From Nannochloropsis oceanica (lineage: Eukaryota > Sar > Eustigmatophyceae > Eustigmatales > Monodopsidaceae): a DNA stretch of 64,000 bases. Of the stretch, positions 2,130 to 45,044 are shown one piece after another. A program made the position numbers and the translations under genes. The notes beneath the pieces are model-generated. The model was not told where the DNA came from. It made no database searches and saw only the letters and a list, made by a program, of their open reading frames with translations. The stretch covers positions 496,001 to 560,000 of the forward strand of contig CP038115.1 of NCBI GenBank assembly GCA_004519485.1. Reading direction: 5' to 3'. Position 1 is the stretch's first letter; each line of letters opens with the position of its first letter.

Positions 2130-4210
2130 ATGCTGCGGCTTTTGGACGTCGGGTTGGAAATTGGTCGGGGGTTAGGATTTGTGCGCTCCACGTCTTTTGT
2201 GGAGGTAAGGGGGAAAGGGGGGATAGGCTAGATAGGGGAGGAGGGAGGATGGAGAGAAGTATGAAGAAAGGTCGGACGCGTGATTATTTTATGCGGAGCG
2301 ACGTTGGCTCATGATTAAATGTGAGACTGAAGGGGGGTCTCATGCGAGCATGAGCAACAGCAAGCTGCCTTGCAAATCATTTTCCGTATTCCCTCCTTCC
2401 CTTTCCTCTCCTCCCTCCCAGGAAATGGAGACTCTGGTCTTCCGGTACACTTCCTCCCTCCTGGCCACCGCCCTGAAGCTGCTTCAGTACCTCTTCCTCG
2501 GCCTCGCTCTTCTGACCTCCGCCACCGCTATCTATGCAGTTGCGTACCAACTGATCATGCCTACCAAATTACACGAAAAAGAGCTGTTTTTTGACTATTT
2601 CCCACCTGCTGTCAGCGCTGTTGGTACCGTTGAATATGGCAGAGGAGGGCCAGGTGGCTGGCCAGGGCCTTACCCTGCTGCGGCGGCGGCGGCGACGGCA
2701 GCGGCAAGTGCCGACGCCACTGGTGCTGGTGCTGGCTATGGTAGCTCCTTCAATTCGCCTGAGAAGGCGAATGCGGCCGCCGCTCATTCGGTTACGATGA
2801 TTACGGGGGAAAACCCTCCATCCCCTTCTGCGCCTCCTCCCCCTCAAGACGCCGTCGACTCCTCCTCCCCCTCCTCCTCTCCCTCCACACCCTCCTCTCC
2901 ACCCTCCAACACCTGCGCTTCCCCCACTCCTCCGTTCTTTCCTCCCTCCTACCATCACCCCTTCCCCCACGCCACTGTCGACTTCCTCTCCAAGCACAAC
3001 CAATGGCATGCCTCCCCCCTCACCAAAACCGATACTCCCCTCGACCGTATCCTCCGCCCGGACCGTGTATACGTCATTGACATCGAGATGACCCTTCCTG
3101 ATTCGGAGCCCAACGCTTTTCTCGGGAATTTTATGGTCTCGGTCGATTTATTTACGCGGGGAAATGAGCTTCTGGCCCGGTCGGCTCGGCCTTTGATTCT
3201 CCTGTACAGGTCCCATTGGGTGCGGATAATACGGTCTTTCTTCCTGGCGCCTTTTTGGGCCTTGGGCCTGTCGCAGGAAGCGCAGGTGGTCCGGGTTACC
3301 CTCTTCGATCGCTTCCGAGAGTCAGGTGCTCATCCCATGGCCTGGGCGCGGGTCACACTCTCGTCCCCTCAAGTGCATGTGTACAAGGCGACATTGTCCA
3401 TCACTGCCCAATTGAATTGGCTGCAATTTGTCATGTCGTATTATTTTTATTCGACTGCGTTTTGCGCGATTCTTTTGCTCGCAACCATGCTTGCAGCGGT
3501 GGTGGGCTTTGTCTACGTGTGGACCGAACTGGAGGGGGAGGAGGAGGAGGCTCGGCAGGGAGGGAGGGAGGACGAAGAGGAGGATGCTTGGGGGAATGGA
3601 GGGGGTTTGATGGCGGGAGGAAGTGGTAGAAGAGGAGGAGGGAGGGGAAGAGGAAGAGAGGGAGGCGGCTTTGGTGCGGGAAGTCATCACTACCAGCAGC
3701 AGAACGCGGCGAACGATGAGACGGAGACGTTGTTAGGGGCGGAAGGAGGGAGGGAGGGAGAGATGGACCGGGGGGAGGGGAGAGCGATGGTACAGGTAGC
3801 AGAGGGAGGAGATGGGGGAGGCAGGGGAGAAGGGGAGGGGGGAAGAGGAGGAGACTTGTCGTCGCCGGCGTCAATGACCACTAGGAGTGTGTTTTTGGTC
3901 GATGATGATGGAGGGCAGGTGGAGGGGGGGGGGGGAGGGAGGGGGAGGAGTAGCTGGAGGAGGAGGGAGAGAAGAGCTGCAGACCATCTCTGGGAGTCCT
4001 ACAGTTGTGCCCATGTCGTCAAGTCAGAGTGTGACGTTGACGGGGGGAGGGACGCAGGGCGGGGGGGATGATCCGCAGCCGCAGCAAAGTCAGGGGGTGA
4101 GGAGGAGGGGGCAGCACCACCACCACCACCATTACCATCGCCATCATCAGCATGGACAAGGGGACGAGGACGACGATGAGGAATTTTTGTTGGGAGCGAC
4201 GAGTAACTAG
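2130..4210 (+). CDS. BSCL2: seipin, lipid-droplet assembly protein
   Basis: Two-exon model: 2130-2204 (MLRLLDVGLEIGRGLGF...) with a GTAAGG donor in phase 0, joined to a CCTCCCAG acceptor at 2421 and an exon from 2422. A first hydrophobic segment (SLLATALKLLQYLFLGLALL) is followed by the seipin lumenal start (ELFFDYFPP). The conserved core follows: IEMTLPDSEPNAFLGNFMVS, LILLYRSHWVRIIRSFF, and a second membrane segment near 3430-3520. Seipins are ER proteins that scaffold lipid-droplet formation, which fits an oil-rich alga. A Gly/Ser/Pro insert of about 120 residues sits between the first TM and the core, and an acidic Gly-rich tail of about 180 residues follows the second TM. The frame used for the core stops at 4071. 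An overlapping frame entered at the G run 3924-3935 runs on to 4210 with a His-rich acidic end, so the true C-terminus is uncertain. Confidence 0.88.
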
Positions 4211-10936: not shown

Positions 10937-11201
10937 GCATATTTATCACCACAGCAAGCAACAGATTTCAAATCTAAAGCAGATTTATCACTACTTGTTA
11001 CATTTAACCACCAACCACTCACCTTCCTCTTCTACTTTCATACCCAGCATATCATCAGGCACCGTTGAAATCGGCCGCGGCCCCTGGGACAATCACGCAA
11101 TAGCCCCTAGCTTGTTCAACCACTCCAGCCACATGTCCTTCTCCGTCTCGACCTGTCATTGTCCCTAGTAAAATCCAGTCCATCCCCAACATAACCACAC
11201 C

Positions 11202-12530
11202 ATGGTCGGCCTGCCCCTCCTCAAGCTCGGGGGTCTGGCCATCAAGACCCTTGCGAAGCCCGTAGCCAAGCGGATGAAGGTCGAGGCTGCCGAGCGACCG
11301 GGCCTCAAGAGATTTTATGTTACCGTTGGCCAATGGACCCATCAAGCCTCCGCGTGGATCACCATCTCCTCCGCGGGGCATAAATCCCTGGGCGTGAAGG
11401 AATTGGAAGAAGCCGCAGCGTTTGCACGAGGGGCAGATTTCTTATCGGAGACTCTGGTGTTCTTCGTGGGTGGTGCCATCTTGACGTTCGAATATACACG
11501 GTCCAACATGAGCGCGGCGAAAAAAGAGGCAGCGAAGGAAGCAGGGCGCCAGAAATTCAGAGAAGATCTAGAGGCACGGTTTTTGGTGCTGGAAGCAAGG
11601 GTAGATGCGATGGAAGAGCAGCAACAAGCAGGGTGGGCGAGGCTGTTTGCGGGCGGAGGGGGAGGGGGAAAGGGAGGGAGGGAGGGAGGGAGGATTACCT
11701 TAGAGGACTTGCCACCGGCGCCCCGGTTTGCGGATGTCGAGACATTGAAACAGAAGAAAAAGAGGCAGGCGGCGGATGCAGCAGCAATGTCCGCGGTTGC
11801 AGCAGTAGCGGCAACCGAGATGAAGGACAAGGAGATTGGAAAAAGCGGGGGGGGAGGGCAAAATTCATCTGTTTCCTCCTCCTCCTCCTCCTCCTCCTCT
11901 TTTCCCCCCTCTTCTTTCTCACCGATACCAAAAGGGAAGGTGCTGCAAAGTAGCATGGTGAATACGAGCGGCAGTAGCGGTAGCCGTCCTCCCTCACACC
12001 ATTCGTCTGAAGAGACGATGGTCGACACGCCGAGGGAGGGGAAGGACGAGGAGGAAGGGAGAAAGGGAGGGGCGGGAGGAGGGAGAAAGGATCGTCCATG
12101 GTGGTGGACCCGAGTGTGGAGGTCTGTCCGAGGAGGAGGAGGAGGAGGGGGAGGAGGAGGAGGAGGAGGAGGAGAAGAGGTAATGGTACCAACAGCAGGT
12201 GCAGCAGCTGAAGAAGTAAGGCAAGAGGCCGCACTTAAGACCAACAACAGCAGCAGCAATATTGCCTCCACTACCACTACCACTAGCGGCAGCAGCAGCA
12301 CAGCTACAAAGCTCGCTGTGTCAACGGTAAGGATTAAGGTGGTGAAGGTGACTCCTTTAGGCGTAGACAGAGAATTTCTCTTCCTCTACTTTCCAACGAT
12401 CTTCCAACCCGCCACTCCACGGGTGCGTGGGGAGAAGGGAAAAAGGAGGAAGGAAGGGAGGGAGGGGGAGGGAAAGGGGGAGGGAGAAGAGGAGGAGGAG
12501 GGGCGTTGGTGGAGGCATGTGGTCGTTTAA
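11202..12530 (+). CDS. OPA3: OPA3-like protein
   Basis: A continuous 442-residue frame. Residues 1-150 match the OPA3 family: MVGLPLLKLGGLAIKTLAKP, an amphipathic mitochondrial-type start with the conserved LLxxxIKTLAKPxA pattern, then a hydrophobic segment LSETLVFFVGGAILTFEYTR and a charged coiled coil (QKFREDLEARFLVLEARVD). OPA3 proteins are mitochondrial membrane proteins of about 180 residues linked to mitochondrial morphology. Here roughly 290 further residues are low complexity (poly-Ser, poly-Gly, acidic) with little sign of folding. A GTAAGG at about 12329 may be an intron donor, so the last 70 residues may not be real. The OPA3 domain itself is secure. Confidence 0.8.
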   Translation: MVGLPLLKLGGLAIKTLAKPVAKRMKVEAAERPGLKRFYVTVGQWTHQASAWITISSAGHKSLGVKELEEAAAFARGADFLSETLVFFVGGAILTFEYTRSNMSAAKKEAAKEAGRQKFREDLEARFLVLEARVDAMEEQQQAGWARLFAGGGGGGKGGREGGRITLEDLPPAPRFADVETLKQKKKRQAADAAAMSAVAAVAATEMKDKEIGKSGGGGQNSSVSSSSSSSSSFPPSSFSPIPKGKVLQSSMVNTSGSSGSRPPSHHSSEETMVDTPREGKDEEEGRKGGAGGGRKDRPWWWTRVWRSVRGGGGGGGGGGGGGGEEVMVPTAGAAAEEVRQEAALKTNNSSSNIASTTTTTSGSSSTATKLAVSTVRIKVVKVTPLGVDREFLFLYFPTIFQPATPRVRGEKGKRRKEGREGEGKGEGEEEEEGRWWRHVVV

Positions 12531-15346: not shown

Positions 15347-16785
15347 ATGGGTGCTCTGGGTACAGACAGCAAAGATGGGACGAAGCAGGCGTCCATTCTG
15401 TCCTTTTTCCGAGGTGCCGCTGCGAACGCCTCTACTTGTCCTCCGCCAGCAGCACACAGACGGAAAGGAATGAAAGGAAAACAAAAGGCAGCTGCAACTA
15501 TTAAAAACACACTAACTCCACGACAGAAGAAGAAGAAGAAGAAGAAGAAGACGATAAAAAAAAGGGAAGAGGAAGAGGAGGAGGAGGAGGAGGAGGGAGA
15601 AGAAGAGGAGGAGGAAGAGGAGGAGGAGATTGAGGTCGACGATGACCAGGAGGAGGTGGTGTTGCTGGTAGATGAGGATGAGAAGGAAGAGGGAGATATG
15701 GGAATGGAGGAAAGAGAGCAAAAAGAAAGAGAGCAGGAGGACATGAAAACAAAATATCAGCGCTCGCGCGAAGCTGCAGCGGAAAAGACGAGAGCAGTGG
15801 GGGAAGGAGAGGCGGGAAGGAGAAAGGTCGTTCAGGCAGTTACAGAAGACGTATCAATGCCTTTCCCTGCTATTGCTGAGGCCGTGTGTCCCGTTCCATC
15901 CGCAACAGGAGCAACAGTAGAAGCAGCAGCAACGGTAGCAGCAGCAGCTGCTGTGGTACGAGGTGGAGGGCGGGAGGAAGCAGAAACAGCCGCAACAGTG
16001 GTATCAGTAGCGGCAGCAGCCGGAGTGGTAGCGCATGGAGAGCGGAAGGAAGTAGCATCAGCGACGATAGCAACAGCATCAACGCCAACTATAGCAACAG
16101 TAACAGCAGCAGGTGGGGCAGAAAGAGGAGCAGTCTTGAGTTCGAAAAAGGAGAGGATATTGGAGGAGAACGACGCGAAGGAGGAAGAGGAGGAGAGGGA
16201 GGGAAAGCAAAAGGAGGAGGAGGACGAGGAGGATGAGGAGGACGAGGACAAAGTTGAGGAAAACAGACGCGACTCAGACGGACTGACGGAAATCGAGCGT
16301 CTCCGCGCCGAGCGCATCCGGGAGAATGCAGCCTTTCTGGCCTCCTTGGGTTTGAATGCCTGCAAACCGTCCGCCTTGGTCCGGGGCGAGGATGGTGAGT
16401 CGGCCCTTGCTTAAGAAACGAGGGAGGGAAGGAGGGCGGGAACGAGGGACGGACAGAGGGAGAGTGAGATGTGGAATGTTACAATTTTTATCCCGTATCG
16501 ACTCGCATCCTCCCCCCTTCCCTACCTTTCCACCCATTACCACTCAGCCCCACCTACCCACCCCTATGCACACCACCACCACTCACACACCCACCCTTAT
16601 GCATGCATACATGTAAATATACATACATAATCCTCAACATCAGGCAAGCCCCCGAAGAAGAAATCTAAAAAGCGGCCCCCTCCTTCCTCCTCCTCCTCCC
16701 TTGGCGTGCGTAGGTCCCTGCGCCATAAAAATATTCCTCAAGACACGGGCACTTTCCCTTCTCCTTACCATGAGGGAGGGGGGAA

Positions 16786-16816
<31 letters not shown>

Positions 16817-19043
16817 GAGGTGAACTATGATGACTCGAGTGTGTTGAAATACGTGTGTAACGCCCAAGGCCAGTGCGAGGAAGAGGAGGAGGGAGGGAGG
16901 GACGGACGGGTGCCTGCATCTTCCTCGTCCTCCTCTTCTTCGAAACAGCCCCTGCGTGGGTTTGCCTACCCTCCTCGATGGGTGGAAGAGAAGGAGGAAG
17001 GCCACAGTGGCAGCAGTAGCAGCGGCAGCAGCAGCAGAGGAGGCAACGTTTTTTCCGACCCCGCCCTCTCGGCTGTCTATACCCTGCACCTCCAGCCCTC
17101 CTCCTCCTCCTCCTCCTCCACCTCCTCCCCCTCCTCCCTTCCTTCCCCGATGTCCTCCTCGCTCTTGGCGGCCGCGGGGAAACAAGGCCGGATTGCCATC
17201 TTCCAAACCCAAGCACGCCCATGCAAGCCCTCCTCCTCCTCCTCCTCCTCCTCCTCCTCCCTCCTCCTCTCCTTCCGGGGCCACACCGGCTGGGTTGCCG
17301 ACGTTCGCTTCCTCACCCCTTGCCACCCCCCTCCGTCCTCCTCGCCCTCCGTCCTCCTCGCCTCGGCGGCGAACGACGGTGTCATTAAACTGTGGGACAT
17401 AGCGCGCGTCCATCCCACCACTGGCATGCCGAAGGCCTTGGCCTCGATCAACGTAAGCATTCCCTCCCTCCCCCCCTCCCTCTTGCCCTCCCTCCCTCTT
17501 CCCTTCCAGCGTTGCTGCAGCTGTTGGGACTAACCCTCCCTCCCTCCCTTCCTCCCTCCCTCCCCTCAGAACCTGCATCACAAAGGCATTTTCTCCATGG
17601 ATGCGTCAGCTGACGGCCTGCTGCTCGCCACAGGTAGCAAAGACGCTACCGTTGGCCTCCTTCGTGTCCACAACAGCGGGCTGGTGGTGGAGAGAAGGCT
17701 GGAGGTAGGGAGGCAGGGAGGAAGGGAGGCAGGGAGGAAGGGAGGGCCTCCTCATAACTCGCAACCACACTCCATCTTCTCTTCTCTATTTTGCTTTCTC
17801 TTCTCCTCCCATCCCTCCCCCTCTATGTATCTCGTCCCCTCCCCACCCACCCCCCTCCCTCCTTCCAACAATCATTGACGTTAACGTTCACAACAGGACG
17901 TGCACGATTCTGTCGTCAAATGCGTCCGTTTCAGCCCCCAAATGGACTCTCAGTGCTTGGCCATAGCGGGGGACGATCGTGAGATACAGGTGTGTGTCGC
18001 CCTGCCCCTCTCTCCTTCCCTCCCTCCCTCCCTCCCTCCCTCTCTCCCCCCTTTCCTCGTGCTCGCTCTCTGATACCCCTTTCTGCATGGCCTCCTCCCC
18101 GTGAACGTCGGCAATCAATTATGCACGTATCGTCTCCACCCCCTCCCTCCCTCACTTCCTCCCTCCCTCCCTCCTCAGGTGATGGACCTCCGCGCCCCTT
18201 CCTCCTCCTTGTCTTCCTCCTCCTCTTCCCTCATCATCTCCCAGGCCCATGCCCGCACCGTCCATACGGTTCGCTGGCATCCAACCGAGGTGAAGAGGAG
18301 ACCCCTCCCTCCCTCCCTCCCTCCCTCCCTCTCCTCCTCCCTTCTTTCAGCCTCCCTTCCCCGTGCAGGATGCTAGTCATTTTTACTCATGGACCTCCAC
18401 CTCCCTCATCGTCCTCCCTCCCTCCCTCCCTCCCTCCCTCCAGCCCCATCTCCTCCTTTCGGCAGGCCTCGACCAGCACCTCCGTCTCTGGGACCTCCGC
18501 AAGGCGGGAGGGAGGGAGGGAGGGAGCGAGCCCCTGACATCCTACTTCGGGCACGTGTCATCCCTGGTCAAGAAGCAGGTGGCCATCACGGCTCCTGAAT
18601 TTTACGATGGAGGAAGGTGAGAGGGAGGGAGAGAGGGAGAGAGGGAGAGAAAGAGGGATTTTATGATGGACGAATGTGGGAGGGAGGGAGCGAGGGAGGG
18701 AGGAAGGGAGGGAGGGAGGCGACGCACGTCCCTCCTTCACTATTTGTCCCTCTCCTTATCATTTCATGTCCTACTTCCTTCCCCACCCTCCCTCCCTTCC
18801 TCCCTCCCTCTATCTCTTTCCAGGTACATCCTCATCACGGGCGAGAAGTCCCAGCGTCTCTCCATCTACAACACACAGACCGGCCAAACCATCAGCCGAG
18901 GACAGCTTGCCTCGGACGTGACGCAAATGGTGGCCCTGGAAGAGAAGGGAAGGAGGGAGGGAGAAGCAGGAGGAGGAGGAGGAAGAACATCATTGTTAGT
19001 AGCTTGTCGGCAAGGGGCCTTGGTAAAGCTCACGCCTTTTTGA
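15347..19043 (+). CDS. WDR76: WDR76/CMR1-like WD40 protein with N-terminal PIP box
   Basis: Seven exons: 15347-16394, 16644-17452, 17570-17704, 17897-17989, 18179-18289, 18369-18616 and 18824-19043. All phases close, giving 887 residues. Residues 14-21 are QASILSFF, an exact PCNA-interacting peptide (QxxIxxFF). A Lys/Glu/Ala low-complexity region follows, then RLRAERIRENAAFLASLGL and RRSLRHKNIP, the signature N-terminal helix and basic box of the WDR76/CMR1 family. WD repeats include GHTGWVADVRF...LLASAANDGVIKLWDI, FSMDASADGLLLATGSKD, VVKCVRFSPQ...DDREIQVMDLR, VHTVRWHP, LLSAGLDQHLRLWDLR and ILITGEKSQRLSIYNT. CMR1/WDR76 acts in the nucleus in genome stability and as a CUL4-DDB1 partner. Exon 6 keeps a TCCC repeat in frame ([11 protein letters not shown]). 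Confidence 0.88.
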
Positions 19044-19782
19044 GAAAAAATAGGGAGGAGGAAAGAGAGAGGAGGGTCGGCGTTGGAGGGGAAAGAATGA
19101 ATTAAATGTAGTGTCACATTTATTTTAAATATCCTTTTGTATCCTCTGAGGGGTCGCATATTTTCTCTCTTGCAGCCGGTAGGTGGTCTTTCCATTCAGG
19201 CGTTCTACTCTCCCCCCTCCTCTCTCCTCCCCTTCCTTCTTCCCTTGTCTTAATCGAATTTCATTAACTCGCGAAAACCAACTGACCCGGCAGTAAGCGA
19301 AAACAATTTTATGTATCTTGGCCGCATCGTGAAACATGTAGCCAGTTTACTCGCTGATCCCCCCTTGATTGTATTCTAGATATATCAGCTCATACCCACC
19401 ACCTCCCGTGGCTGTCTTTTCTTTCACTTCTGTTGGTATTACCCCTGCTGTTGCGTGTCGCGCGGAAGTAAAGAGGAAAATGTGCCAGGGACGACGATCG
19501 AGCCCTTATGTCATCATGTCCGACAGGATTACTAAGGCAGAACAATGTGGGGGGGGATTATAGAAGACGCACACCAAAGCCACATCTCCACATATCCATA
19601 CATCAACCCAGTCATGCAACCCAACCTTTTCTTCCATTTCGACAGGCGCGTGGCAATTTGAGCAGCCGGAAGTGAAACGAGGGATATGACGGTGTTCTAG
19701 GGCCCTGTTCCACCAGACACTTACTATCACCACGCTCCTACGAGCACTAACAAGCAAGATCACCCGCACAAGCAACAAAAAC
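19044..19782. other. intergenic region upstream of TYW1
   Basis: Contains the 3' flank of the WDR76-like gene and the TYW1 promoter. No gene was recognised. Confidence 0.5.
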
Positions 19783-22700
19783 ATGCCTGAATCCAAGTAC
19801 AACACCTACAGCTACTTCACAGCCGTCTACAATTGGCTCTACCCCACCCCTGCACCTCCTCCACCCACTCTCATGGAACGGGCAGAGGAGCACTTCAACC
19901 ACTGCCTGGGCGTGGCCAAGCACCAAGTCTCCGTCTACTCTTCTATGGCCGTCCCCTTCGTCGCCACCATTCTCCTCCTCCTTTTGCCCCTGTGCATCTT
20001 TCTTTGGTCGAGCGGCCCGCCTGCACCCATGGCGGAAGCAGAGGGAGGAGGAGCAGGCGCGGAAGGCAGGAGAGGGGGAATGGCGATGGTTGCGGGAGGG
20101 GATAAGGGGGAGGAGGAAGAGAAGGAGGAAGGCGCTGTGGCACAGCCCATGGATGCGAAGACGGCCACGACGAGTGATCAAAGGGGGGAGGGGAGGGAGG
20201 AAGGAGGGAAGGGAGGCAAGGACGTCGACATGAGCAACCCGCCGTCCACCAGCGCGGGTCAGAAGAGAGAGAAGCCTAGAGGAAGCCCCGTTCATGTCGG
20301 TCCGGGTGGTGTGTCCTCCCTCGCGTCCTCCCCTGCCTCGATCACCTCCTCCTCCTCCTCTTCGAGCTCCCCGTCCTCCTCATCTTCCTCCCCTCTGTTT
20401 GGGTCCTCGGGTCTTGCGGGGGCGGCGGCGGCGATGGTGGTCGGATTTCCAATGCCTGAGGGAGGGGAGGAAGGGAAGGAGGGAGCGAAGGAGGTGCAGG
20501 AGGAGGAGGAGGCAGCAGTGGGTTGCTGTGGTGGCGGTGGAGGAAGAGGAGTGAAGGGAGGAAAGCAAAGTGCTTCTCGAGGAGGAGGAGGAGGAGGAGG
20601 AGGGTGTGCATGTATGGAAGGCGAAGCAGCAGATATAGCGACAAGGATGGAAGTCGGTGGTAATGGTGGAGGTGGCGGGTGCTGCAAGGGAGGGAAGGAG
20701 GAAGTGAATGACGTGGCGTTGCGTGAGGTGGGGGGGATCAAGCAGGTGCCCTTGAAGGTGCTGGTGGGGTCGGGCACGGGGACAGGGAAAAAACTTGCGG
20801 AGATGCTACAGGTAGGGAGGGAGGGAGGGATGGAGGGAAGGAGAGAAGAAATCTGGTGAAAGAAGGACGAACGAAAGACATGGCTGGTTCATTCACTCAC
20901 TTACACCTCCTCCTCTTCCTCCCCCCCTCCCTATCCCTTTCCCTCCCTCCCCCCCTCCTTACTTCCTGCGCCGCAGAAAGAAGCCTTTGCCATGAACATC
21001 TCTGGATTCCATTTCGCGCTGAGCGTTACGGACCTCGCGGACTACGACTTTGTGGAGGAGCTCGAGGTAGGGGGGGAGGGAGGGAGGGAAGGAGGGAAGG
21101 AAAAGAGAAAGGGAGGGAAGGAGGGAAGGAGGGAGGGAGGGAAGGAGGGAGGGAGGGAAGGAGGGAGGGATGGAAGAGCCGTTCTGTACCTTCCTGGTTC
21201 CCCATCTCACATTCACACATTCTTATCCCTCCCTCCCTCCCTCCCTCCATCCCTCCCTCCCTCCTGCCGCCCTCTTCTACCTCCCCTCCAGCACGAGAGG
21301 CTGCTTGTGCTCATCTGCTCGACCTGGACCGACGGTGTGCCTCCCCCCGCGGCCAAGCCCTTTTTCGATTACCTCGAGGTATGGAGGGAGGGAGGGAGGG
21401 AGGGAGGGAGGGAGGGATAGAGGGAGAGAGGGGAGAAGAGAGAAGCATGCGAGTGGAGGAGGCATTCGAAAAGTGACCTCTCTTTCCCTCTTTCCCTCCC
21501 CCTCCCCTCATTCATGTAGGATGCCAGCAAGGATTTCCGTTACGGCGGTTCGGCGTTAAAGAAGATCCGTTTCGGGGTGTTCGGGCTCGGATCGTGCATG
21601 TACGAGGAAGAGAGCTTCTGCAAGCCCGCCATCGAGATGGAGACTTTCCTGTGTGACCTCGGCGCCAAAAACATCGTGGAGCTAGGTACACGTCCTCCCT
21701 CCCTCCCTCCCTCCCTCCCTCCCTTGCCTTCTAGACATGGGGATGAACTTCATTTCTCCTTTAACCACCGACACCACCCCCCTCACCCCTCCCTCCCTCC
21801 ATCCTCTCTTTTTGCGCAGGCACGGGTGACGACACGGTGGATCTGAGCCCTCAATTTACCTCGTGGACCGAAAGCCTTTGGCCGGCCCTGTGCGAGGAAT
21901 ATGCCAAGGTACGCCCTCCCTCCCTCCCTCTCTCCCTCCCTCCCTCCCGCCTTCCTTTCTTCATTCCCTGTCTTCAACTTGTCTCCAATACCAGTATTTA
22001 ATAAAAACCTTACCTCCTCCCTCATTCCCTCCCTCCGTCCCTCCCCAGATTACTGGCGTCACGCCTCTCTCCTCCTCCTCCTCGGGCTGTGGTTCCTGCG
22101 GCAGTACCACCGCCACCGGCGGTAAGAGCGCGTGCAGTAGCAGCAACAGCAACAACAGCAGCAACAAGAACAGCAGCTCGAATGTTTACAAAGCCCAAGG
22201 GTCGTGGGAGGAGATGGAGAAGAAGCAGGCTCTCAAGGCGGCCAGGAAGGGAGGGAAAAAGGGGGGGAGGAATGGGAAGGTCCATCGATATGGTGGCAGC
22301 AGTGGTAGTCAGGAAGGAGGAGGAGAGGGGCAGGGAGAGGGGGCTGGACGGGGGCCTCGACAGCAGCAGCAGCGGCGGCGAGGGATGCAGAGCAGGGCTG
22401 TGATCAAGGAGGGAAAGGAAGGGGAGGACGAGGAGGAGGAAGATGTAAGTTTGTTGGGGGGAGGGAGGGAAGGAGGGGGAGGAAAGAAGGACGGAGGGAT
22501 GGAGGGGGAGGAAGAAGGCAGGAGGGTGGAGGGGGAGGGAAAGGGGGGGTAGGGAGGAGGGGGAGAGAAGAAGGAGGGAGGATGGGGGGGAGGGGGAAGG
22601 AGGGGAGAGAAAGAAGGACGGGAGGGATGGAGGGGGAGGGAAAGAAGGACGGGAGGGAAGGCCTCGGGGAAGTTCCCGCCTCCTTGGAGCTCTTTTGCTG

Positions 22701-25700
22701 TAAATCCTGGCCGGAGTTTTTCTTTGGAGCCTCCCCTCTTTAGGGAGGGGGAGGGAAAGAAGGGGGAGGGAAAAACGGACGGGAGAGACGAAGAAAAGTC
22801 TCTCTGTCTGAGAGACAGTCAGGAATTAAAATTGAATAGCAACGTGATCTTCCCCTTCCCTCCCTCCCGCCCTCTCTCCCGCCCTCCCTCCCGCCCTCCC
22901 TCACTCCCTCCCTCCCTCAGGCTGATCTGACGCAAACGCCAGAAGACGAGGTCAATCTCCGCCTTGTCGAAGAAGAGTGGGTGTCCTCCGACGAGGAGGA
23001 GGACGGAGAGGAGGAAGGGAAGGAGGGAGGGGTGATGGATCTGGAAGATCTGGGCAAAGTGCTGCCAGAGAAGAATAAAAAGGGAGGCGGAGGGGGGGAG
23101 GAAGAAGGGGAGGGGGGAGGGGCGGGAGAAGTGGCGGAGGTATCGGCGCCGAGGGAGATGGTGACGCCATTGCAGGTAGGTAGGTAGGGAGGGCAGGAAG
23201 TGGAAGGATAACTGTTGCTATTCGCTGTCCTTTCGTCTTATCATGGGCTATATGTCCACACACGTACATGTACCTCTATATGCATATACATGTACGCCTC
23301 CATGATCTCTTTTCAATGTGTGCCATCTTCCTTTCCATTCATTCCCAGCGGAAGAAGCTGACGAAGGAGGGGTATAAGCTCATCGGCTCCCACTCGGCCG
23401 TTAAACTCTGCCGGTATGGCATAAGGGAAGGAGGGAGGGAGGGAGGCAGGCAGGCAGGCAGGGAGGGAGGCAGGGAATGAGAGTTGATTATTTGGTATAT
23501 AAATATGCACATACATGCACTACTCGCTCACCATCTACTTCCTCCCCCCTATCGATCCATCCCCCCCTTCTCCCTCCCTCCTTGCAGCTGGACGAAGCAC
23601 CAGTTGCGTGGTCGCGGCGGGTGCTACAAGCACACATTCTATGGCATTACCTCCTACCAGTGTATGGAGATGACACCGGCCCTTGCTTGCGCCAACCGAT
23701 GCGTGTTTTGCTGGCGCCACGGCACGGTCAGCCCCTCCCTCCCTCCCTCCCTCCCTCCCTCCTTCTCTCCCTCCCACGTCCAAGACGACAAGTGCACAAT
23801 ACCTCCCTCTCACTCTTCCCTTCCTCCTTCCCTCCTTCCCTCCCTCCAGAACCCCGTGGGCCGGGAGTGGCGATGGGCGGTGGACGACCCGGCCATGATC
23901 GTCAAGGAGTCGATCGAGAAACACCAGGACATGATCAACATCTTCAAGGGCGTCCCCGGCGTCAAGCCCGAGCGGTGGCAGGAGGCCTTCACCGTGGCCC
24001 ATTGCGCGCTGTCCCTCGTGGGAGAGCCTATCATGTACCCTCACATCAATGAGCTGGTTTCGGAGCTGCACCGTCGTAATATCTCCTCCTTCCTTGTCAC
24101 CAACGCCCAGGTAGACCCACCCACCCTCCCTCCCTCCCTCCCTCCCTCCCTCTTTCTTCAATATGTGCTTCCTTCTTTTGAAGTGCTCGTTGAATGACAT
24201 AACCAACCCCTCCCTCCCTCTCTCTCTCTCTCTCCCTCCCTCTCTCTCTCTCTCTCCCTCCCTCTCTCTCTATCTCTTTCTCTCTCCCTTTGTTCCTTCC
24301 CTCCCCATCATCAGTTCCCGGAGAAGATCGCGGCCCTGTCGCCCGTGACGCAGCTCTACGTTTCCATCGACGCCGCCACGAAAGAAACCTTGAAGGCCAT
24401 TGATCGTCCTCTCTTCCGCGACTATTGGGAACGATTCCTCTCGTCTCTGCAGCAGCTGCGTCTGAAGGTACGGAGGGACGGAGGGAGGGACGGAGGGAGG
24501 GGGGAACGGAGGGACGGAGGGACGGAGGGAGGGACGGAGGGAGGGACGGAGGGGCGATGAGAAACGGCCATCCATCGTCCTCTCTTCCACGACATCTGGG
24601 AACGATTTCTCACTTCTCTGTAGGAGGGGGGGGGAGAGTAGCAGCAGCAGCACTTGTGATTGAAGGAATGTTGATTTCTTCCTTCCCCTTTCCTCTTTCC
24701 TTCTTTTTTCCCTGTCACGCACCTCTCCTGTAGTCATCCTCCCTCCCTCCTTCCCTCCCTTCCTCCTTCCCTCCCCTAGGGACAACGGACTGTTTACCGC
24801 CTGACGCTGGTTAAAGCCTGGAACATGAATGAGGTGGACAGCTACGCCGAGCTGATAGGTAAAGGAGGGAGGGAGGGTGAGAGGGAGGGGGGGGAAGCGG
24901 AAGGAAGAGACGGAGGGAGGGGCGGGCGGAGGGAGGGACGGAGGGAGACAACGTGGGTCACCTGTTGCAGAAGACAAGTAGGCGGAGAAGGAGGAAGGGA
25001 GGAAAGGAGAGGGAAGAAAGGGCTGACCGAGTGATCCATCTATAGTACAGTAACCATCTTTTTTTAATTTGAATATATTACCAAATAAATTACAGGGATG
25101 GGAGAGCCAGATCTGATTGAAATCAAGGGCGTGACCTTCTGTGGAAAAAGCGCCCTCTCCACGTTACGGTAAGGAGAGAGGGAAGGGAGGGAGGGAGGGA
25201 GGGAGGGAGGGGATGTGAGGAGAAGGGAAAACAGTTGCACTCCCATGATGGTGAAACCCTGTATTTGTTTACACTTTCCGTGATTCCAAACTCTTTTCTC
25301 CTTATCGAGTGCACTTGTTTCTCTTGACAGGGAAATATAGGTTAGGGGTAGAGATATATATATACAGATACAGGGTGGAGAAGAATGTCCTATGTCTTCC
25401 ATTTATCTTGACATGTATACATATACGTACTTATATATACACATACTTATATATAAATATATGCATATATACACACCTATAGGATGGAAGAGAACGTCCC
25501 GTGGCACCACGAAGTCCGCGCCTTCGCCCAGGCTATCTCCGACCGCACCAGCGGTCAGTAACGGCGGAGGGAGGGAGGAATGGAGTCGTATCTCCACACC
25601 TTTGGATTCTTTGTCTCTTCAAGCGAGGAGGGTTTCGACCCTCACAAACAGGAAACCCAATCAGGGACTTACCGGAATTTCTCTCCCCTCCCTCCCTCCT

Positions 25701-26292
25701 CCCAGGCACATACGAGTTTATGGCCGAGCACGCCCACTCTTGCTGTACCCTTCTTGCCCGCAAGGACAAGTTCTACCGCGACGGGAAGTGGTTCACTTGG
25801 ATTGATTATGCCAAGTTTCAGGAGCTGATTGAGAAGGTGAGGGAAGGGAGGAAGAGAGGGGGGGAGGAAGGGGAGGAGGGAAGGGCACATGGATGAGGAG
25901 GGAGGGGTACATGGATGTTATGACACATGCCATTTGTGCCGATGGGAAATGTTTCACCTGATGGTCGGTGGTAACGCCTATTGTTTGGAGATGGTGGTTG
26001 AAAAGGAGAGGGAGAGAAGGGAAGGAGAAAACATTTTTGTGGACATGGTCATCTCCTGCATAGTTGACACGTCATCCTCCCCTCTTCTTCCGTCCTTCCC
26101 CCCCCTCTTTCCCAGTTCGAGAAGGACGGCACTGAATTCGACTCTGCAGACTACTGCGCCGAGACGCCCTCATGGGCTCTCAAGGGTTCGCCGGAAGAAG
26201 GCTTTGATCCTATCGATACGCGATATCGTAAGGTGCGGGGAGGGGGGTTGGAGGAGATACCCTACCGACCGACGGATAGTGGATGTGGGTAG
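19783..26292 (+). CDS. TYW1: tRNA 4-demethylwyosine synthase TYW1
   Basis: Sixteen exons: 19783-20811, 20977-21066, 21292-21378, 21520-21685, 21820-21908, 22049-22444, 22921-23175, 23349-23413, 23588-23726, 23850-24110, 24315-24467, 24780-24858, 25096-25168, 25483-25553, 25706-25836 and 26116-26292. Every phase closes, giving 1086 residues against about 730-810 usually. An N-terminal membrane segment lies near 55-75 (VPFVATILLLLLPLCIFLW). A flavodoxin-like FMN domain begins PLKVLVGSGTGTGK near 322. A Gly/Lys/Glu-rich insert of about 215 residues (exons 6-7) comes next. The radical SAM domain has C760-x3-C764-x2-C767 (CANRCVFC), LVGEPIMYPH, LYVSIDAAT and IEIKGVTFCG. The enzyme makes the tricyclic imidazopurine of wybutosine in tRNA-Phe from m1G37 and pyruvate, probably on the ER face. 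The start was chosen as the ATG immediately before the hydrophobic anchor. A GTAAGG at 26227 leaves the last 20 residues less sure. Confidence 0.95.
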
Positions 26293-28196
26293 AACTTGGG
26301 GAGACGGAGGGAAGGCGGGAGAAAGGGAAACGAGATGACGAGTGATATGGTGAAGAGAGAGTGAGGTAGCTGAGGAGAAACGGGCTTGAATGAGCGAGGA
26401 GGTAGCAGAGAGTAAAGAAGGAAGGAGTAAGGGTAGGAACGTAAGGCAGCTCCCCCCAAAAATTAGTGAAGAATAAGGGCAAGTTTATATGTGGAGTAAA
26501 TCAAGAGCAAGCAAACATCCTATCACGTAGGGAGTCCAAAAAGAAGAAACACACGAAGAGGACGGTAGTACGGACCCAGCTGTGCACTTTTTAGCTTTCT
26601 TCTTGATATTTTTTGTTTTTGGGAGTACGTGCAACGGAAGGAGGGCAAGCAAGTGGAAGCTCAGCATGCGATGGAAATGCATAAGACACAAAAAGCTCTC
26701 GAAGAGGGACTACGGAAATAAGTAGCACAAGCGAATACAATAGAGCTGTATGGTCCACGGATGAAGCTTCTGCAGTACCGTAACAACGCCTCCTGAACGA
26801 ACGGGAGCATCTGCGGGCGTGCTTCAGAGAAAATGGTGGCGCTTGAGGAAAGGTTCAGCCAGACCAAGACTGAGACAGGTGAGGAGAAACGAGAGTGCCA
26901 TTTACGTGTTTCATTGCACTATGTGCGATAAAAGATCAGTGGAAGATACTGGACCCATAGAGATAGCTGTAAGGGGCAAGTGGAATTAAGGAAAACATGA
27001 TTTTGGACAGAATTGTATATGAAATGTTCAATTGGGATTGTTGCTTGTACTTTTTCTGGCTATATGCTGGACGATGCATGGCAGTTGTATCTTGATTCCT
27101 CTTGATTTATCCCTATACTGCATATTCCCGGGCGTACCCGCTAGTACTGCATATTCCCTTTGCGAAGGTGCGTAGCAGCAGTATGCTTGTGATCCGACGG
27201 CGCGACGGTCCTTGCTCGTCAAGCAAGCATTCTGTGCCATCGTGAACGGTACGCCGACCAATTTCTTGGCTTGACAGGAAAGGCAAATCCCATACAATAT
27301 AGATGAATGCATTTATTCATATTCACCGACAACCAAGGTCTCAATTAAGTGTGAAGAAGACAGGCAAAAGTGGGAGGTACCGGAAGTCCGCTGTTTAAAT
27401 CTTTTGCCTGACCTACTGGACTTGCTTGCGTCAACATGTATATTCTCGCTCTCTTTAAGTTTCCACCTCGGCGTCCCAACTTTATCCTCGTGTACATTGG
27501 TCAACCAGCCAACACCATGCGTATTTACAACCCCAGTTACCGACACGCCATGGGTTCGACCTCCTGCGGGCGCTCACTGCTTTGTCCAGATTTGAAAACT
27601 TCACCGGCCGTTGAAGAAGCCAGTGCCGGGACTACGCCACAAAGGCAACATCAAAAGCCACTGGTTCTTCGCCTTTGTAGTGTACGCATGCTTTTTTCTT
27701 CTATTTCTTTACTGGTCGCACAGCTGGTGGTTTCTCTGTGCACATTTGGCACAATCATTTTTTCCTTTCTCCTGCCCTTCTCACCGTCGTGCGCCCTCCG
27801 CACCTGCCAAACGCCAAGATAAAAGCGCGTGCTTTTTTCCGCACACTCCGAGTCTTGTTCCCCCCCAAGTTCCCCATGCCGTCACGTGCTGGTTGTATCT
27901 TTTCCAGGAGACTCCGCTGGACATCCAAGTAATCAACGCATACCAAAGGGCATTCTCAGGCACCTCGTATTTAAATTCTCCCTTCCATTTCCATCTATAC
28001 TCGCACACTCACAGGGGAAGTTGCGCTTCTGTTCGCGTCCAATTTCCTCTTCCCTTTTGGTCTAGCACTTTCCACGAAGCGACAGTCCCCTACCGCTATC
28101 ATTAAGACCACCAAAGACGGGCCTGCTACTAGCCATTCACAAGGCGGTGGTCAGCCAGAAGGAGGAAGACAATAAATCCACCCCGCCAGCCCAATC
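26293..28196. other. long intergenic region
   Basis: About 1.9 kb between TYW1 and the intronless LRR gene, both on plus. Short overlapping frames at 27436-28105 have no protein-like features and probably belong to the LRR-gene promoter and leader. No RNA gene was recognised. Confidence 0.45.
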
Positions 28197-30293
28197 ATGA
28201 AGACGCGACGCTTCTCAACACTCCAAGCAGGGGAGGCGGCAGGAGTAGAAAATTGTGAAGCAGGAGCAGGAGCTGCGAGAGAAAAGCTGGCTGTCGTGAC
28301 CGCGGGTCTGGCCAACGCCACGACGAGGGTAGGAGCAGGAGGAGCAGCGACAGCAACGACAGCGACTGCAGTGGCTGCAGCAGCATCGCTCTCGACAGGG
28401 AGCCCTCGACATAGAAAGACAGCCCGGTTGTCGTCCACTACTCAGACACCTGTGGGTCGAGCGGGCCTGTCATTCGTCGCCTCGTCCTCATCCTCCTCTC
28501 TATCCAGCACCATCACTCCCTCAACCCCTCCCTCGGCCCACCAGGCCTCACCTCGGTTTCCTTTACCTTCGGAGCTATGGGCGCAGATTCTGTCCTTCTT
28601 CAGCTTGCGTGAATTGCCGGTGATGACCTTGCTAGATTTGATGGGCATTAATGCCTGCACACACTTGCGAAAGCTAGATCTGTCCAACCGACAGACTGGG
28701 GGGGGAGGAGCGAGGGTGCTGATGGAGAGATTGAGGGAGGGGGCGTGCCCTGAAATGGAGCAACTGGATCTAACAGGCTTCGAGCTTGGAGTAACGGGTG
28801 TCGAAGCGTTGGGGAGGGCGATGCATGCAGGGTGCTTGGCTGCAAGGGTGAGGGTGTTGAGGTTGAAGAGGACTGGGATGGGATCGCGGGGGATGAGGTT
28901 ATTGGCCAAGGCGTTCGGGGCGGGAGGAGGGAAGAGAGTGGAGGTTCTGGATGTGGAAGGCAATAACGCGGACGCGGGGGCCATGGGATTGTTGGTAACG
29001 GCACTGGTGGGGGGGTCGTGTCCGAGATTGAGAGAGTTGGTAATGGGGCGGAACAGTGTGGGTGATGGGGTATTGGCACGGCTGGCGGGAGGAATGGAGG
29101 GAGGGATGATTGGGAGGTTGAAGGTCTTGAGGGTGGCAGAGGCAGGGGTGAGCACGGAGGGGGTGAGGAGTCTGGCAAGGGCGTTGTGTGTGGGGGGAGG
29201 GGGAGTGTTGGAGTGTCTGGATCTGAGTGATAATCACTTGTATCCGCAGGGAGCAGAGGCGATGGCTGTGGCCGTGGCACAGGGGGCAATGCCCGGGCTA
29301 CGACGGTTGGTCTTGTCACGGAATAGGATATACGGGGATGGCACGGCGGCGTTGATGGAGGCATTGGGTCAGGGGCAGTGTCCGCTGTTGTCGGTGCTGG
29401 ACCTGAGGGGGAACAAGATCGGAGCCAAGGGCGCGGCGAGTGTGGGAGGGCTACTAACAGCAGGGACATGCCCGAAGCTGCGGGAGCTAGACGTGGGGGG
29501 GAACTACCTGTATGCCGAGGGGGTGGCTTTGCTAGCCAGTGCGTTGGCCCAACGGCCGCAGCCGGAACTAAGGACGTTGGACGTGGAGGATAATGCAATG
29601 ACAGCCGAAGGGGCTTTCTTGTTGTCGGAGGCTATGAGGAGGGGGGCGGTGGTGGGGCTGGAGGTGTTGAATCTGGGGAGGAATGGGATTGGTGGCGAAG
29701 GGGTGGGTTTCGTGATGGCTGCGCTTGCGGAGGGGTGGTGCCCGAGGGTGAGGAAGTTGAGCCTGCGGAGTAACGAGCTGGGTGTTTTTGGGTTTGCGCA
29801 TGTGGCGGCGTGTGTGCAGCAGGGGGGAATGAAGCGGGTCGAGAGCTTGGACGTGGCCGTGAATGGACTCGGAGAGGAGCCAGGGGTTGTCTTCCTGCCG
29901 ATTGTGATGAGCTCGGAATGGATGCCGGTGTTGAGGGAGGTGGATATGACGTTTAATGGGCTGGAGGGGGACAGGGCGAGGAACCAGGTGGGAACTTTGC
30001 AAGCGGGGAGGGAGGGACGGAAGGAAGGTGGAGTTGTGGTGCGATTAGCGAGGAAGAGTGCCGTGCCGATCTTTAGGAGGACGCAGTCAGCACCGGCGGC
30101 GATAGTTGTGCACCACCACCACCACCAACACCACCACCACCATCAGCAGCAGCAGCAGCAGCAGCAGCAGGTCCAGGCCGTGCCACCCCCTCCGGTACAG
30201 CAGCAACAACAGCAGCAGCAGCATCAGCAGCAGCCCCACGCTGCTTTTTGGGAGATGATTGCAGCGGTCGGCAACAATCAGGGCCAGCCTTGA
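28197..30293 (+). CDS. RI-type leucine-rich repeat protein
   Basis: Intronless, 698 residues, unlike its intron-rich neighbours. An Ala/Ser-rich N-terminus of about 125 residues leads to ELWAQILSFFSLRELPVM, a helix reminiscent of an F-box core but too short to call. At least twelve ribonuclease-inhibitor-type LRRs of about 28-36 residues follow, for example LRKLDLSNRQTGGGG, LECLDLSDNHLYPQGAEAM, LSVLDLRGNKIGAKGAAS, LRELDVGGNYLYAEGVALL, LRTLDVEDNAMTAEGAFLL and LEVLNLGRNGIGGEGV. The C-terminus has a His/Gln tract coded by CAC and CAG repeats (30111-30235). RI-type LRRs are protein-binding scaffolds; the partner is unknown. The GC-rich, purine-rich coding strand is typical of this window. Confidence 0.8.
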   Translation: MKTRRFSTLQAGEAAGVENCEAGAGAAREKLAVVTAGLANATTRVGAGGAATATTATAVAAAASLSTGSPRHRKTARLSSTTQTPVGRAGLSFVASSSSSSLSSTITPSTPPSAHQASPRFPLPSELWAQILSFFSLRELPVMTLLDLMGINACTHLRKLDLSNRQTGGGGARVLMERLREGACPEMEQLDLTGFELGVTGVEALGRAMHAGCLAARVRVLRLKRTGMGSRGMRLLAKAFGAGGGKRVEVLDVEGNNADAGAMGLLVTALVGGSCPRLRELVMGRNSVGDGVLARLAGGMEGGMIGRLKVLRVAEAGVSTEGVRSLARALCVGGGGVLECLDLSDNHLYPQGAEAMAVAVAQGAMPGLRRLVLSRNRIYGDGTAALMEALGQGQCPLLSVLDLRGNKIGAKGAASVGGLLTAGTCPKLRELDVGGNYLYAEGVALLASALAQRPQPELRTLDVEDNAMTAEGAFLLSEAMRRGAVVGLEVLNLGRNGIGGEGVGFVMAALAEGWCPRVRKLSLRSNELGVFGFAHVAACVQQGGMKRVESLDVAVNGLGEEPGVVFLPIVMSSEWMPVLREVDMTFNGLEGDRARNQVGTLQAGREGRKEGGVVVRLARKSAVPIFRRTQSAPAAIVVHHHHHQHHHHHQQQQQQQQQVQAVPPPPVQQQQQQQQHQQQPHAAFWEMIAAVGNNQGQP

Positions 30294-32249: not shown

Positions 32250-37114
<4,865 letters not shown>

Positions 37115-43200: not shown

Positions 43201-44298
43201 AGTGTGGGAGAGGGGTGGGAAGTGATCGAACAAGTCGCACATATACTGGGGGAAATGTCTTCACAGAACAATTGAAGAAGCGTTGAGAATCCCACGAGAT
43301 TGAACATCACTGAGGCCTTCTTTCCCGTAGTACTTGAAGCCTCTCACCTGTGCAAAATGGAGATGACCAGAATAAGCAGACACCACGCCACGGCATCATC
43401 CAATGCCGCAGCGCCGATCGTCATCACACCAACCTCTGTGTCTACAAGATTCAAATCCGTTAATATCCGTGCTAATACCGGGAAAGCAGTGATCGACATG
43501 CTCAAGCCCGTAAAAAGGAGAAAACTTGGGAAGGGAGCTTCATGATCGCTGCTTCCATGTTGGTAGAGGACAATGCTGCCGCCGGACCCGAGGAGAAAAG
43601 GAAAGACGATGCCCACCGCGCTGATGACGACCGTCTTCCGTGCTATGACACCGATAAAGGAGTGTAGAGAAGGAAAAATAATGAGGCATTTGGATTTATC
43701 TTATCGATCTCTAACATGTCCCGCCTCTCCCGCCATTTGTCCCCTTCCGGCCTCTCCCATCCCTCCTCTCTCTCCTTCCCACCCAGGTATATACCATTTT
43801 GAAACAATGCTGTATATAAGTGAAGAATAAAGGGAGGGGAGAGGTATATAAGATAAGAAAGCAGTGAGAAAAAGAAGCACTCCATCCCTCTTTCCTTCCT
43901 GCCTGCCTCGACACTGCCCTCCATCCCCAAAACAACCCATCCCAAGTACCCTTACCCTCGGGAGTAAGTTCCAAACCCATTAAAAACATGTACAATATCA
44001 GACCAATGTTGGCCACTAGAGTCAAGAAGGCGAGGGAGTGCTCGGGAAAGACGTGCCGGAGCCAGCCTGGAATATTTCCCATGCCTGAAGGACCTAGCAG
44101 AATACCAGCCAAAATTTCCGCAATCACTCTTGGTTGATTCAGATAGCTTAGTCCAAAGGCTAGCAGTTTGGTAGTAGCCATGATGATGACAACTTGAAGG
44201 AGGAAGAGCGCGATGGTGGAGTTGAGAGGGTCGGCTCCACTAAGCACCCCGCCGGTCACCTCAGTAGGAGAGGTGGCAGTCTCGTTTACCTCCCCCAT
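40261..44298 (-). CDS. CPA2-family cation/H+ exchanger (CHX type)
   Basis: Seven exons, minus strand: 43956-44298, 43348-43642, 42960-43146, 42655-42813, 42334-42491, 42097-42212 and 40261-41942. All phases close, giving 979 residues. The start is MGEVNETATSPTEVTGGVLS. The transporter domain includes LNQPRVIAEILAGILLGPSG, FLMGLELTPEG, FTGLSMSITAFPVLARILTD, GAAALDDAVAWCLL, IAGVHTIFGSFLLGLAFP, IVFLPLYFAASGLRT, VGALMNTRGLVEIIVLNLGL and ATSPVVTWLYPPEKRVKF. These are conserved blocks of the CPA2 monovalent cation/proton antiporters. A C-terminal region of about 520 residues has two USP-like halves as in plant CHX proteins (SMKLMLVAQRMADVPGV; KKQQKTVLLVFQGGRNDREA). It ends in an acidic stretch (DDDDGEEEDDSDDEEDLEEG). 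The likely role is K+/Na+ and pH balance in an internal membrane; the ion is not deducible. Confidence 0.92.
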
Positions 44299-45044
44299 GC
44301 CCAGCCCCCCAAAAAGTGCGAAGTGACAGGAGCGGAGAATTTAATACTAGTTGATAAAATTGTGGGATTGTCTCAAGCGTGGGTGCTGTCCGGTGTTAGA
44401 AGGGATGAGGACGTTCAAGAGAGAGGCTGTGTTGTGAGTGTGATCGTCTCAACCCTTATCTGCCTTTGTGATTGCACATCACTTTAGTCCGAACTTTATC
44501 CCGTGTCATTGAAGCGCGAGATGCACTTGCGCACGCTTTCCAGAACTAGCCTCGCGACGCAGAGGTTTTGGGCGCGTAGATAGAATGAGGCGGTATTTTC
44601 TCCCGAAGTGGTGACACGTACAACCAACAACCAATCAATCCGGAACCCACATGACTTCAGTATTGTGTGCATGACATGAGGAAAAACAGGGCAACTTCTA
44701 CTAGCTGTAGTAGCATTGCCCTCCCGAATGATGGGTAGATAGGTTGCTGGGTTCGCGTAAAGGGAATAAAAAGCAAAAGCGACAAAGACCAGAGGACATG
44801 CTAAGTCTTTTCCTTTTCATGTTCCTCGTTTTTTTTTTTTAAATCTTTCTGCTTCCTTTCTCCTTCTACCCACCCCCTGTATGCGCTCATCACATGCCCA
44901 CATAGCTCTCCCTCATTTTTTTCTCCCCACGATCTAAGTAGTGTATTTCTCATTCTTTCTCGCCTCTCCTCTCATCATAATCATCATTTGAATGTCGCAT
45001 TAAATAAACGGTCTCCATTCCTCACATTCTCCATACTGATCAAT
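44299..45044. other. intergenic region
   Basis: Between two minus-strand genes. It has T-rich stretches (44820-44845) and no recognised gene. Confidence 0.45.

Follow-up and report, generated by a model that had tools for sequence, protein, structure and literature searches.

Introns of the U2 type carry a polypyrimidine tract right before the acceptor. G-runs adjoining the donors of short introns were reportedly described by McCullough and Berget in 1997, and Lin et al. (2016, Genome Res 26:12) are said to have found teleost introns whose two ends bear AC and GT repeats that are able to pair with one another. In these bridged AC/GT introns the structure is said to replace the polypyrimidine tract and U2AF2. 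The consulted portion of one published account likewise gives fish introns with AC and GT tracts at their ends a bridging structure (PMC7404189). An excerpt of a study of human introns proposes as enhancers the G-runs and G-quadruplexes (G4s) next to donors of short introns, and reports both strands to be enriched at 3' splice sites, 3.01- and 2.78-fold (PMC9065059). Short tandem repeats also delineate gene bodies across eukaryotes, according to an excerpt of a further study (PMC11686069). The 64,000-nucleotide stretch of Nannochloropsis oceanica DNA analyzed here (the window; contig CP038115.1, or C18, positions 496001-560000) contains a gene for TYW1 (tRNA 4-demethylwyosine synthase), many of whose introns bear (GGGA)n arrays near the donor and (TCCC)n arrays near the acceptor. 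These arrays are probably ordinary splicing signals that were enlarged by repeat expansion and whose strand was sorted by splicing, rather than a hairpin selected for joining the intron ends. A literature search over listed titles and the beginnings of abstracts and, by chosen terms, two N. oceanica genome papers and a review of microalgal splicing found no prior printed description of the pattern.

Introns were predicted with a purpose-written gene finder (three-periodic coding model, donor matrix from -3 to +6, acceptor matrix from -4 to +1, no polypyrimidine term) in a 324 kb sample of the genome of about 29 Mb, drawn from three contigs: the window, C1:100001-300000 and C10:300001-360000. 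From 395 introns predicted in genes scoring at least 30, the removal of 139 with a flanking exon below 6 nats and of 14 in TYW1 left 242. The gene finder recovers 14 of the 15 TYW1 introns with TYW1 coding sequence excluded from its seeds, though its splice matrices were derived from TYW1. Pfam searches found the expected domains in all four multi-intron predictions submitted, out of 36 such predictions. TYW1 introns are included in the regional counts and excluded from the 242-intron table and from the co-occurrence, end-swap, edge and adjacent-pair tests. A strict array is a perfect period of 4 over at least 11 nt that lies no more than 60 nt from an intron end.

One microsatellite dominates. 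The window holds 87 GGGA and 84 TCCC arrays, 171 together, and the next tetranucleotide unit reaches 9; across the sample, the 256 well-supported introns contain 203 AGGG and CCCT arrays of at least 12 nt and 10 of the next unit. On the donor side of the 242 introns outside TYW1, GGGA arrays occur in 51 and TCCC arrays in 30 (p 0.026 against equal shares), and on the acceptor side TCCC arrays occur in 70 and GGGA arrays in 3. The same distribution is seen in the 157 introns with canonical sites (donor, 40 GGGA and 20 TCCC; acceptor, 48 TCCC and 1 GGGA) and in 178 introns from a gene model without retrained splice matrices (37 and 23; 54 and 2). Placement is equally uneven. Among 106 introns of at least 180 nt, GGGA arrays are centered no more than 60 nt from the donor in 31 of 44 cases and near the acceptor in 2 of 44, where uniform placement predicts 10.7 for each. 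TCCC arrays are near the acceptor in 36 of 63 cases (14.7 expected), and their 10 of 63 near the donor are not above uniform placement (14.8 expected).

Whole-genome pattern counts (29,264,788 bases, 32 contigs) are independent of gene models. Each anchor was counted once, on one strand, with the forward count for anchor-first patterns and the reverse count for array-first patterns, because among the matches listed the other count repeats arrays. The donor-like anchor AGGTRNG is followed within 30 nt by a GGGA array (GGGAGGGAGGGA) 1359 times and preceded by one 704 times, compared with 955 and 906 for reversed-anchor controls. With the TCCC array (TCCCTCCCTCCC) the corresponding counts are 470 and 98, and the controls 116 and 101. 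Ahead of the acceptor-like anchor CAGGV, TCCC arrays number 1378 versus 439 in the control, and GGGA arrays 1252 versus 1457. Thus, both strands are enriched right after donor-like sites and only TCCC is enriched right before acceptor-like sites. The TCCC excess after donors may reflect the presence of TCCC in introns generally, since the controls are sites of any kind.

Exons share the polarity. In 152 kb of predicted exons, 60 arrays read GGGA on the sense strand and 3 read TCCC, or 56 and 3 with the arrays less than 30 nt from exon ends excluded. Together with the intron arrays, this indicates a tendency along the transcript for TCCC to precede an exon, for GGGA to lie within it and for either unit to follow, until TCCC returns ahead of the next exon. 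For the predicted introns and exons, therefore, the purine strand is concentrated beside donors and on the sense strand of exons, and the pyrimidine strand beside acceptors, where the purine strand is nearly absent. Introns free of arrays have the same asymmetry in a weaker form, with a G-rich start (G 0.33-0.36 at +7 to +20) and a C-rich end (C 0.35-0.39 on the acceptor side). Acceptor sides are on average pyrimidine-rich, with C at 0.40-0.45 and T at 0.25-0.28 in the last 60 nt; exceptions include the AT-rich ends of two TYW1 introns, at 24859 and 25169. The branch-point motif CTNAY at -60 to -13 was uninformative, occurring in 102 of the 242 introns versus 89.5 in shuffles (sd 7.3).

Some further features accompany this polarity. 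Exonic arrays, for example at window positions 32250-37114, encode GREG-type protein repeats in the translations. In the 500 nt flanks of 83-84 predicted genes, the sense strand carries 30 GGGA and 13 TCCC arrays downstream of the stop codon, and 4 GGGA and 5 TCCC arrays upstream of the start codon. With TYW1 included, the donors of 59 GGGA-type introns have mainly a purine at +4 and G at +6, and those of 34 TCCC-type introns have C at +4 (53%) and T or C at +6; which of donor sequence and following array is cause and which is effect is indistinguishable.

The TYW1 introns are supported by reading frame and protein conservation, and their positions in the window are as follows.

20029..26292, + strand: TYW1 gene, 16 coding exons and 15 introns, a single open frame across all joins
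20812..20976, + strand: intron 1, GGGA array 20814-20830 at the donor, TCCC array 20940-20951 close to the acceptor
21067..21291, + strand: intron 2, GGGA arrays inside 21074-21170, TCCC arrays 21226-21264
21379..21519, + strand: intron 3, GGGA array 21383-21417, pyrimidine-rich acceptor side without a perfect array
21686..21819, + strand: intron 4, TCCC arrays at both ends (21694-21724, 21787-21800)
21909..22048, + strand: intron 5, TCCC arrays at both ends, predicted minimum free energy (MFE) 0.0
22445..22920, + strand: intron 6, GGGA-rich 5' part, TCCC arrays inside 22857-22918
23176..23348, + strand: intron 7, brief purine stretch at the start, no perfect array at either end
23414..23587, + strand: intron 8, GGGA arrays inside 23430-23470, TCCC array 23570-23581
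23727..23849, + strand: intron 9, TCCC arrays at both ends
24111..24314, + strand: intron 10, TCCC arrays at both ends
24468..24779, + strand: intron 11, donor GGGA arrays broken by GGAC units, TCCC array 24738-24750
24859..25095, + strand: intron 12, donor GGGA array, AT-rich acceptor side
25169..25482, + strand: intron 13, GGGA array 25184-25211, AT-rich acceptor side
25554..25705, + strand: intron 14, GGGA array 25566-25578, TCCC array 25686-25699
25837..26115, + strand: intron 15, GGGA-like but imperfect on the donor side, rich in pyrimidines on the acceptor side, without perfect arrays

With the 15 introns removed, the spliced frame comprises about 1000 codons, and its product matches PDB 2yx0 (E 4.8e-68) and flavodoxin domains. 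The start codon of the model is the authors' choice, the public protein beginning further upstream, and the stop near 26292 follows the gene-finder model. Across query residues 480-860 the product is 100% identical to a protein named as that of N. oceanica. Aligned with the public N. oceanica protein P0002 (1019 residues), the model is identical in 930 of 1004 columns, with 67 gaps. Relative to the model, P0002 is extended by 82 residues at the N-terminus, is without the 30 residues of exon 2, gives a different reading of a low-complexity part of exon 7 and departs at two single residues. Exon 2 (window 20977-21066), absent from P0002, is conserved in the transcript-derived protein P0003. Since a TCCC acceptor array precedes it and a GGGA donor array follows, looping out of the exon and an annotation error are both possible.

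An initial annotation of the sequence had named ten TYW1 donors (20812, 21067, 21379, 22445, 23414, 24468, 24859, 25169, 25554 and 25837), and all ten are donors in the one continuous frame. Each is followed by a G/A-rich stretch; the annotation's claim that (GGGA)n begins at once was too strict, as perfect GGGA arrays are found on the donor side of 9 of the 15 introns, beginning 2 to 16 nt inside, and the stretch at 25837 is imperfect. Donor-side TCCC arrays occur in 4 of 15 introns, and on the acceptor side TCCC arrays occur in 10 of 15 and GGGA arrays in none. The statement that many of the same introns end with (TCCC)n applies to the six with a complementary GGGA-TCCC pair (20812, 21067, 22445, 23414, 24468 and 25554), and not to 24859 and 25169, which end AT-rich. 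The annotation was right about pyrimidine repeats at both ends of 21686, 21909 and 23727, to which a fourth intron of this type (24111) is added, along with the array-free intron at 23176. Beyond TYW1, the bias in placement at splice sites that it had proposed to check exists, both in the 242 predicted introns of the 324 kb and at anchors across the whole genome. Its assertion that neither placement nor strand varies was wrong, as both strands occur near donors, in the 242 introns and also in the 52 well-supported window introns outside TYW1 (13 GGGA and 13 TCCC). The paired design that was said to recur in other genes does so weakly, with GGGA-TCCC in 5 of these 52 introns and TCCC-TCCC in 11.

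Other genes of the window identified by Pfam encode a seipin (2284-4068), an OPA3 protein (11172-12527), a leucine-rich repeat (LRR) protein (28176-30290), a Na+/H+ exchanger fragment (43714-44340) and a 2Fe-2S domain (45730-46320). The N. oceanica genome has been described with 2.87 exons per gene in the consulted part of the genome report (Guo et al. 2019, PMC6610115). An assembly artefact as the source of the arrays seems unlikely because the exons remain in frame and the arrays are found genome-wide.

Donor arrays might have been selected as G-run or G-quadruplex enhancers of donor recognition, the pyrimidine side being just the polypyrimidine tract. As the explanation of the whole pattern this is rather doubtful. 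The initial annotation fairly credited the GGGA side with G-quadruplex capacity: a G4 motif is present in the first 60 nt of 53 of the 242 introns versus the last 60 nt of 2, and in the first 80 nt of 9 of the 15 TYW1 introns. However, TCCC occupies the donor place in 30 of 242 introns and in 4 of 15 TYW1 introns, and most introns in array-poor stretches lack arrays. Enhancer action is compatible with signals enlarged by expansion and sorted by splicing, and may be the positive force that this explanation otherwise misses.

In a bridging hairpin, the GGGA arm at the donor would pair with the TCCC arm at the acceptor, bring the splice sites closer to each other and define the intron. This reading, which the initial annotation had put forward, is unlikely as the reason for the repeats, although the hairpin is possible on paper and has a precedent in the AC and GT tracts of fish introns (PMC7404189, in the portion consulted). 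Complementary ends are associated over all introns, with 23 of the 51 GGGA-start introns ending in TCCC (Fisher p 0.0055). The non-pairing combination is also associated, in 19 of 30 TCCC-start introns (Fisher p 4e-5). The difference between the two shares is not significant (p 0.17; 0.33 for looser tracts). A higher frequency of TCCC ends among TCCC-start introns is therefore not claimed; the point is that the complementary class enjoys no advantage. When acceptor labels were shuffled within genes, the complementary pair showed no excess (23 versus 20.8, p 0.24), yet TCCC-TCCC did (19 versus 13.9, p 0.02). With looser purine or pyrimidine tracts of at least 15 nt, complementary ends numbered 48 versus 45.3 (p 0.21) and pyrimidine-pyrimidine ends 37 versus 29.7 (p 0.002). 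The gene finder merges TYW1 with its upstream neighbor (15470-26796), so some of the genes in these within-gene tests are probably fused.

Pairing energies likewise fail to single out the ends of the same intron. In the 183 of the 242 introns that measure at least 120 nt, the duplex of an intron's own ends averaged -31.3 kcal/mol, compared with -30.5 for swapped ends (p 0.19) and -32.5 for ends swapped within the gene (p 0.96). For 47 GGGA-start introns the values were -55.7 and -56.2 kcal/mol (own and swapped, p 0.66). The 60-nt ends of the 23 introns with both arrays could form very strong duplexes, with a mean of -67.1 kcal/mol, but swapped ends reached -67.0 (p 0.49, sd 1.5); an advantage of about 3 kcal/mol should have been visible. 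Against same-gene swaps the 23 introns did slightly better (-67.1 versus -65.9, p 0.18), a small difference that favors the hairpin and is not significant. In 94 truly adjacent intron pairs, pairing across the exon (-32.9 kcal/mol) equaled pairing within the two introns (-33.6 and -30.9; p 0.89), and would therefore loop out exons equally.

Folding of the six TYW1 introns with both arrays gave 15-40 end-to-end pairs versus dinucleotide-shuffle means of 5.2-14.0, with MFEs below the shuffle means. Pairing capacity above that of shuffled sequence, a kind of comparison that the initial annotation had called for, was clear in five of the six and not in 25554 (15 pairs versus 14.0). End-to-end pairs also form in some TYW1 introns with one perfect array (34 in 21379, 20 in 24859) or none (39 in 25837). 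By eye, the interruptions in the donor arms of introns 8 and 11 (GGCA and GGAC units) are not mirrored by changes in the acceptor arms. From the co-occurrence, swap and folding tests it follows that the capacity of the ends to pair is real and strong, but unspecific. Moreover, most introns in array-poor stretches have no arrays. For single introns a bridging hairpin is possible, though the statistics do not show it.

The four TYW1 introns with TCCC at both ends fold little, with MFEs of 0 to -12.8 kcal/mol and 0, 0, 0 and 14 end-to-end pairs, which likewise tells against the hairpin as the reason for the repeats. It is conceivable, if improbable, that introns exist in two interchangeable states, paired (GGGA-TCCC, with a long duplex) and unpaired (TCCC-TCCC), that repeat polarity marks exon and intron, and that one microsatellite family took over the splicing code in array-rich stretches. 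If so, the two states might use different splicing routes, and pairing across exons could skip exons such as exon 2 of TYW1.

A purely regional mutation bias, by which non-coding arrays would expand anywhere in some stretches and have no role in splicing, is very unlikely. Regional differences in density are strong. End arrays are found in 98 of 162 introns of array-rich stretches (the window before 60000 and C1:100-200 kb; 14 TYW1 introns included), in 21 of 61 introns of C1:200-300 kb and in 2 of 33 introns of C10 and the window end. The window is itself an array-rich block at 496-556 kb of C18 (837,052 bp), which ends near window position 60000. Among the 100 whole-genome match places listed for C1, which reach 1,666,988, ten lie between 0.2 and 1.37 Mb and the remainder at 20-200 kb or beyond 1.379 Mb, that is, near both ends; among the matches listed for C2 and C3, the clustering resembles that of C1. 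In an array-poor C10 gene, SNF2-like by reading of its translation, one of 16 predicted introns has a donor array, and TCCC acceptor arrays are absent from all of them. The vanishing of the complementary-end association within genes is also in keeping with regional bias. It is contradicted by the orientation and edge placement of arrays at splice sites and by exon polarity. Within array-rich stretches, the purine content behind the donor has two modes, the sequence being almost all purine or almost all pyrimidine.

It is barely credible that the introns are mobile, introner-like copies with GGGA/TCCC terminal inverted repeats: the arrangement at the two ends is inverted and introns are denser in array-dense surroundings (median 3.2 versus 1.4 per coding kilobase in 88 genes; rho 0.41, p 6e-5), but the arrays differ in length, phase and distance, and TCCC stands at both ends of many introns.

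Enlargement of ordinary splicing signals by repeat expansion thus retains preference. According to this explanation, a single microsatellite whose two strands read (GGGA)n and (TCCC)n would have expanded in certain stretches of N. oceanica chromosomes, and the needs of splicing would sort its orientation along each transcript. Slippage may have enlarged the short G-run and pyrimidine-tract seeds of ordinary introns into arrays. The acceptor array would then be the polypyrimidine tract or an extension of it, and the donor array would either work as an ordinary G-run enhancer within the intron or simply be tolerated. Arrays in the opposite orientation would be eliminated where they destroyed a polypyrimidine tract or created a false one. 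The complementarity of intron ends would be a by-product that is not intron-specific. G-run or quadruplex enhancer action may keep GGGA beside donors, by analogy with the proposal for human short introns in the excerpt consulted (PMC9065059).

Several points weigh against this explanation. Introns outside TYW1 are predicted and not RNA-verified, and the gene finder can label a TCCC stretch as intron, which may affect the exon count of 60 GGGA to 3 TCCC. Slippage as the source is inferred from one genome, not observed. TCCC arrays near 30 of 242 donors are not predicted by a G-run enhancer; since TCCC near the donor is not above uniform placement in longer introns, this class may be plain tolerance. 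Tolerance alone leaves unexplained the crowding of GGGA at the donor (31 of 44), which calls for seeding or some positive role.

Should the sorting model hold, it illustrates how an unstable microsatellite may serve as splicing signals or be constrained by them. The alga also offers a natural experiment on how the spliceosome handles G-runs, pyrimidine tracts and duplexes, as neighboring introns of single genes range from strongly self-complementary to barely foldable. It serves as a warning, too, that complementary intron ends need not imply a selected hairpin.

Finally, the arrays resemble and depart from each of the known systems. Like the teleost AC/GT introns, N. oceanica introns can carry complementary simple repeats at both ends that are capable of pairing (23 of 242 predicted introns and 6 of 15 in TYW1). 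Unlike them, they use a GGGA/TCCC pair in which the acceptor arm is itself a pyrimidine tract, the two ends do not co-occur beyond within-gene chance (23 versus 20.8, p 0.24), an intron's own ends pair no better than unrelated ends (183 introns), and a TCCC-TCCC class is nearly as common (19 versus 23 of 242). As with donor-proximal G-run and G4 elements, sense-strand G-runs are concentrated right after the 5' splice site; unlike known donor G-runs, they are tandem arrays of one unit that cluster regionally, and TCCC stands in their place at 30 of the 81 array-bearing donors. Human 3' splice sites are enriched in both strands in the excerpt consulted (PMC9065059), whereas N. oceanica acceptors nearly exclude the purine strand. 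Placement is tied to gene architecture, as it is for the repeats that delineate gene bodies, but those, in the part of that study drawn on here, are mono- and dinucleotide repeats positioned with respect to gene bodies and translation sites rather than splice sites (PMC11686069). The pyrimidine-rich stretch before the N. oceanica acceptor resembles the polypyrimidine tract of U2 introns, and differs from the usual tract in being C-rich and, in 70 of 242 introns, in containing a perfect TCCC array.

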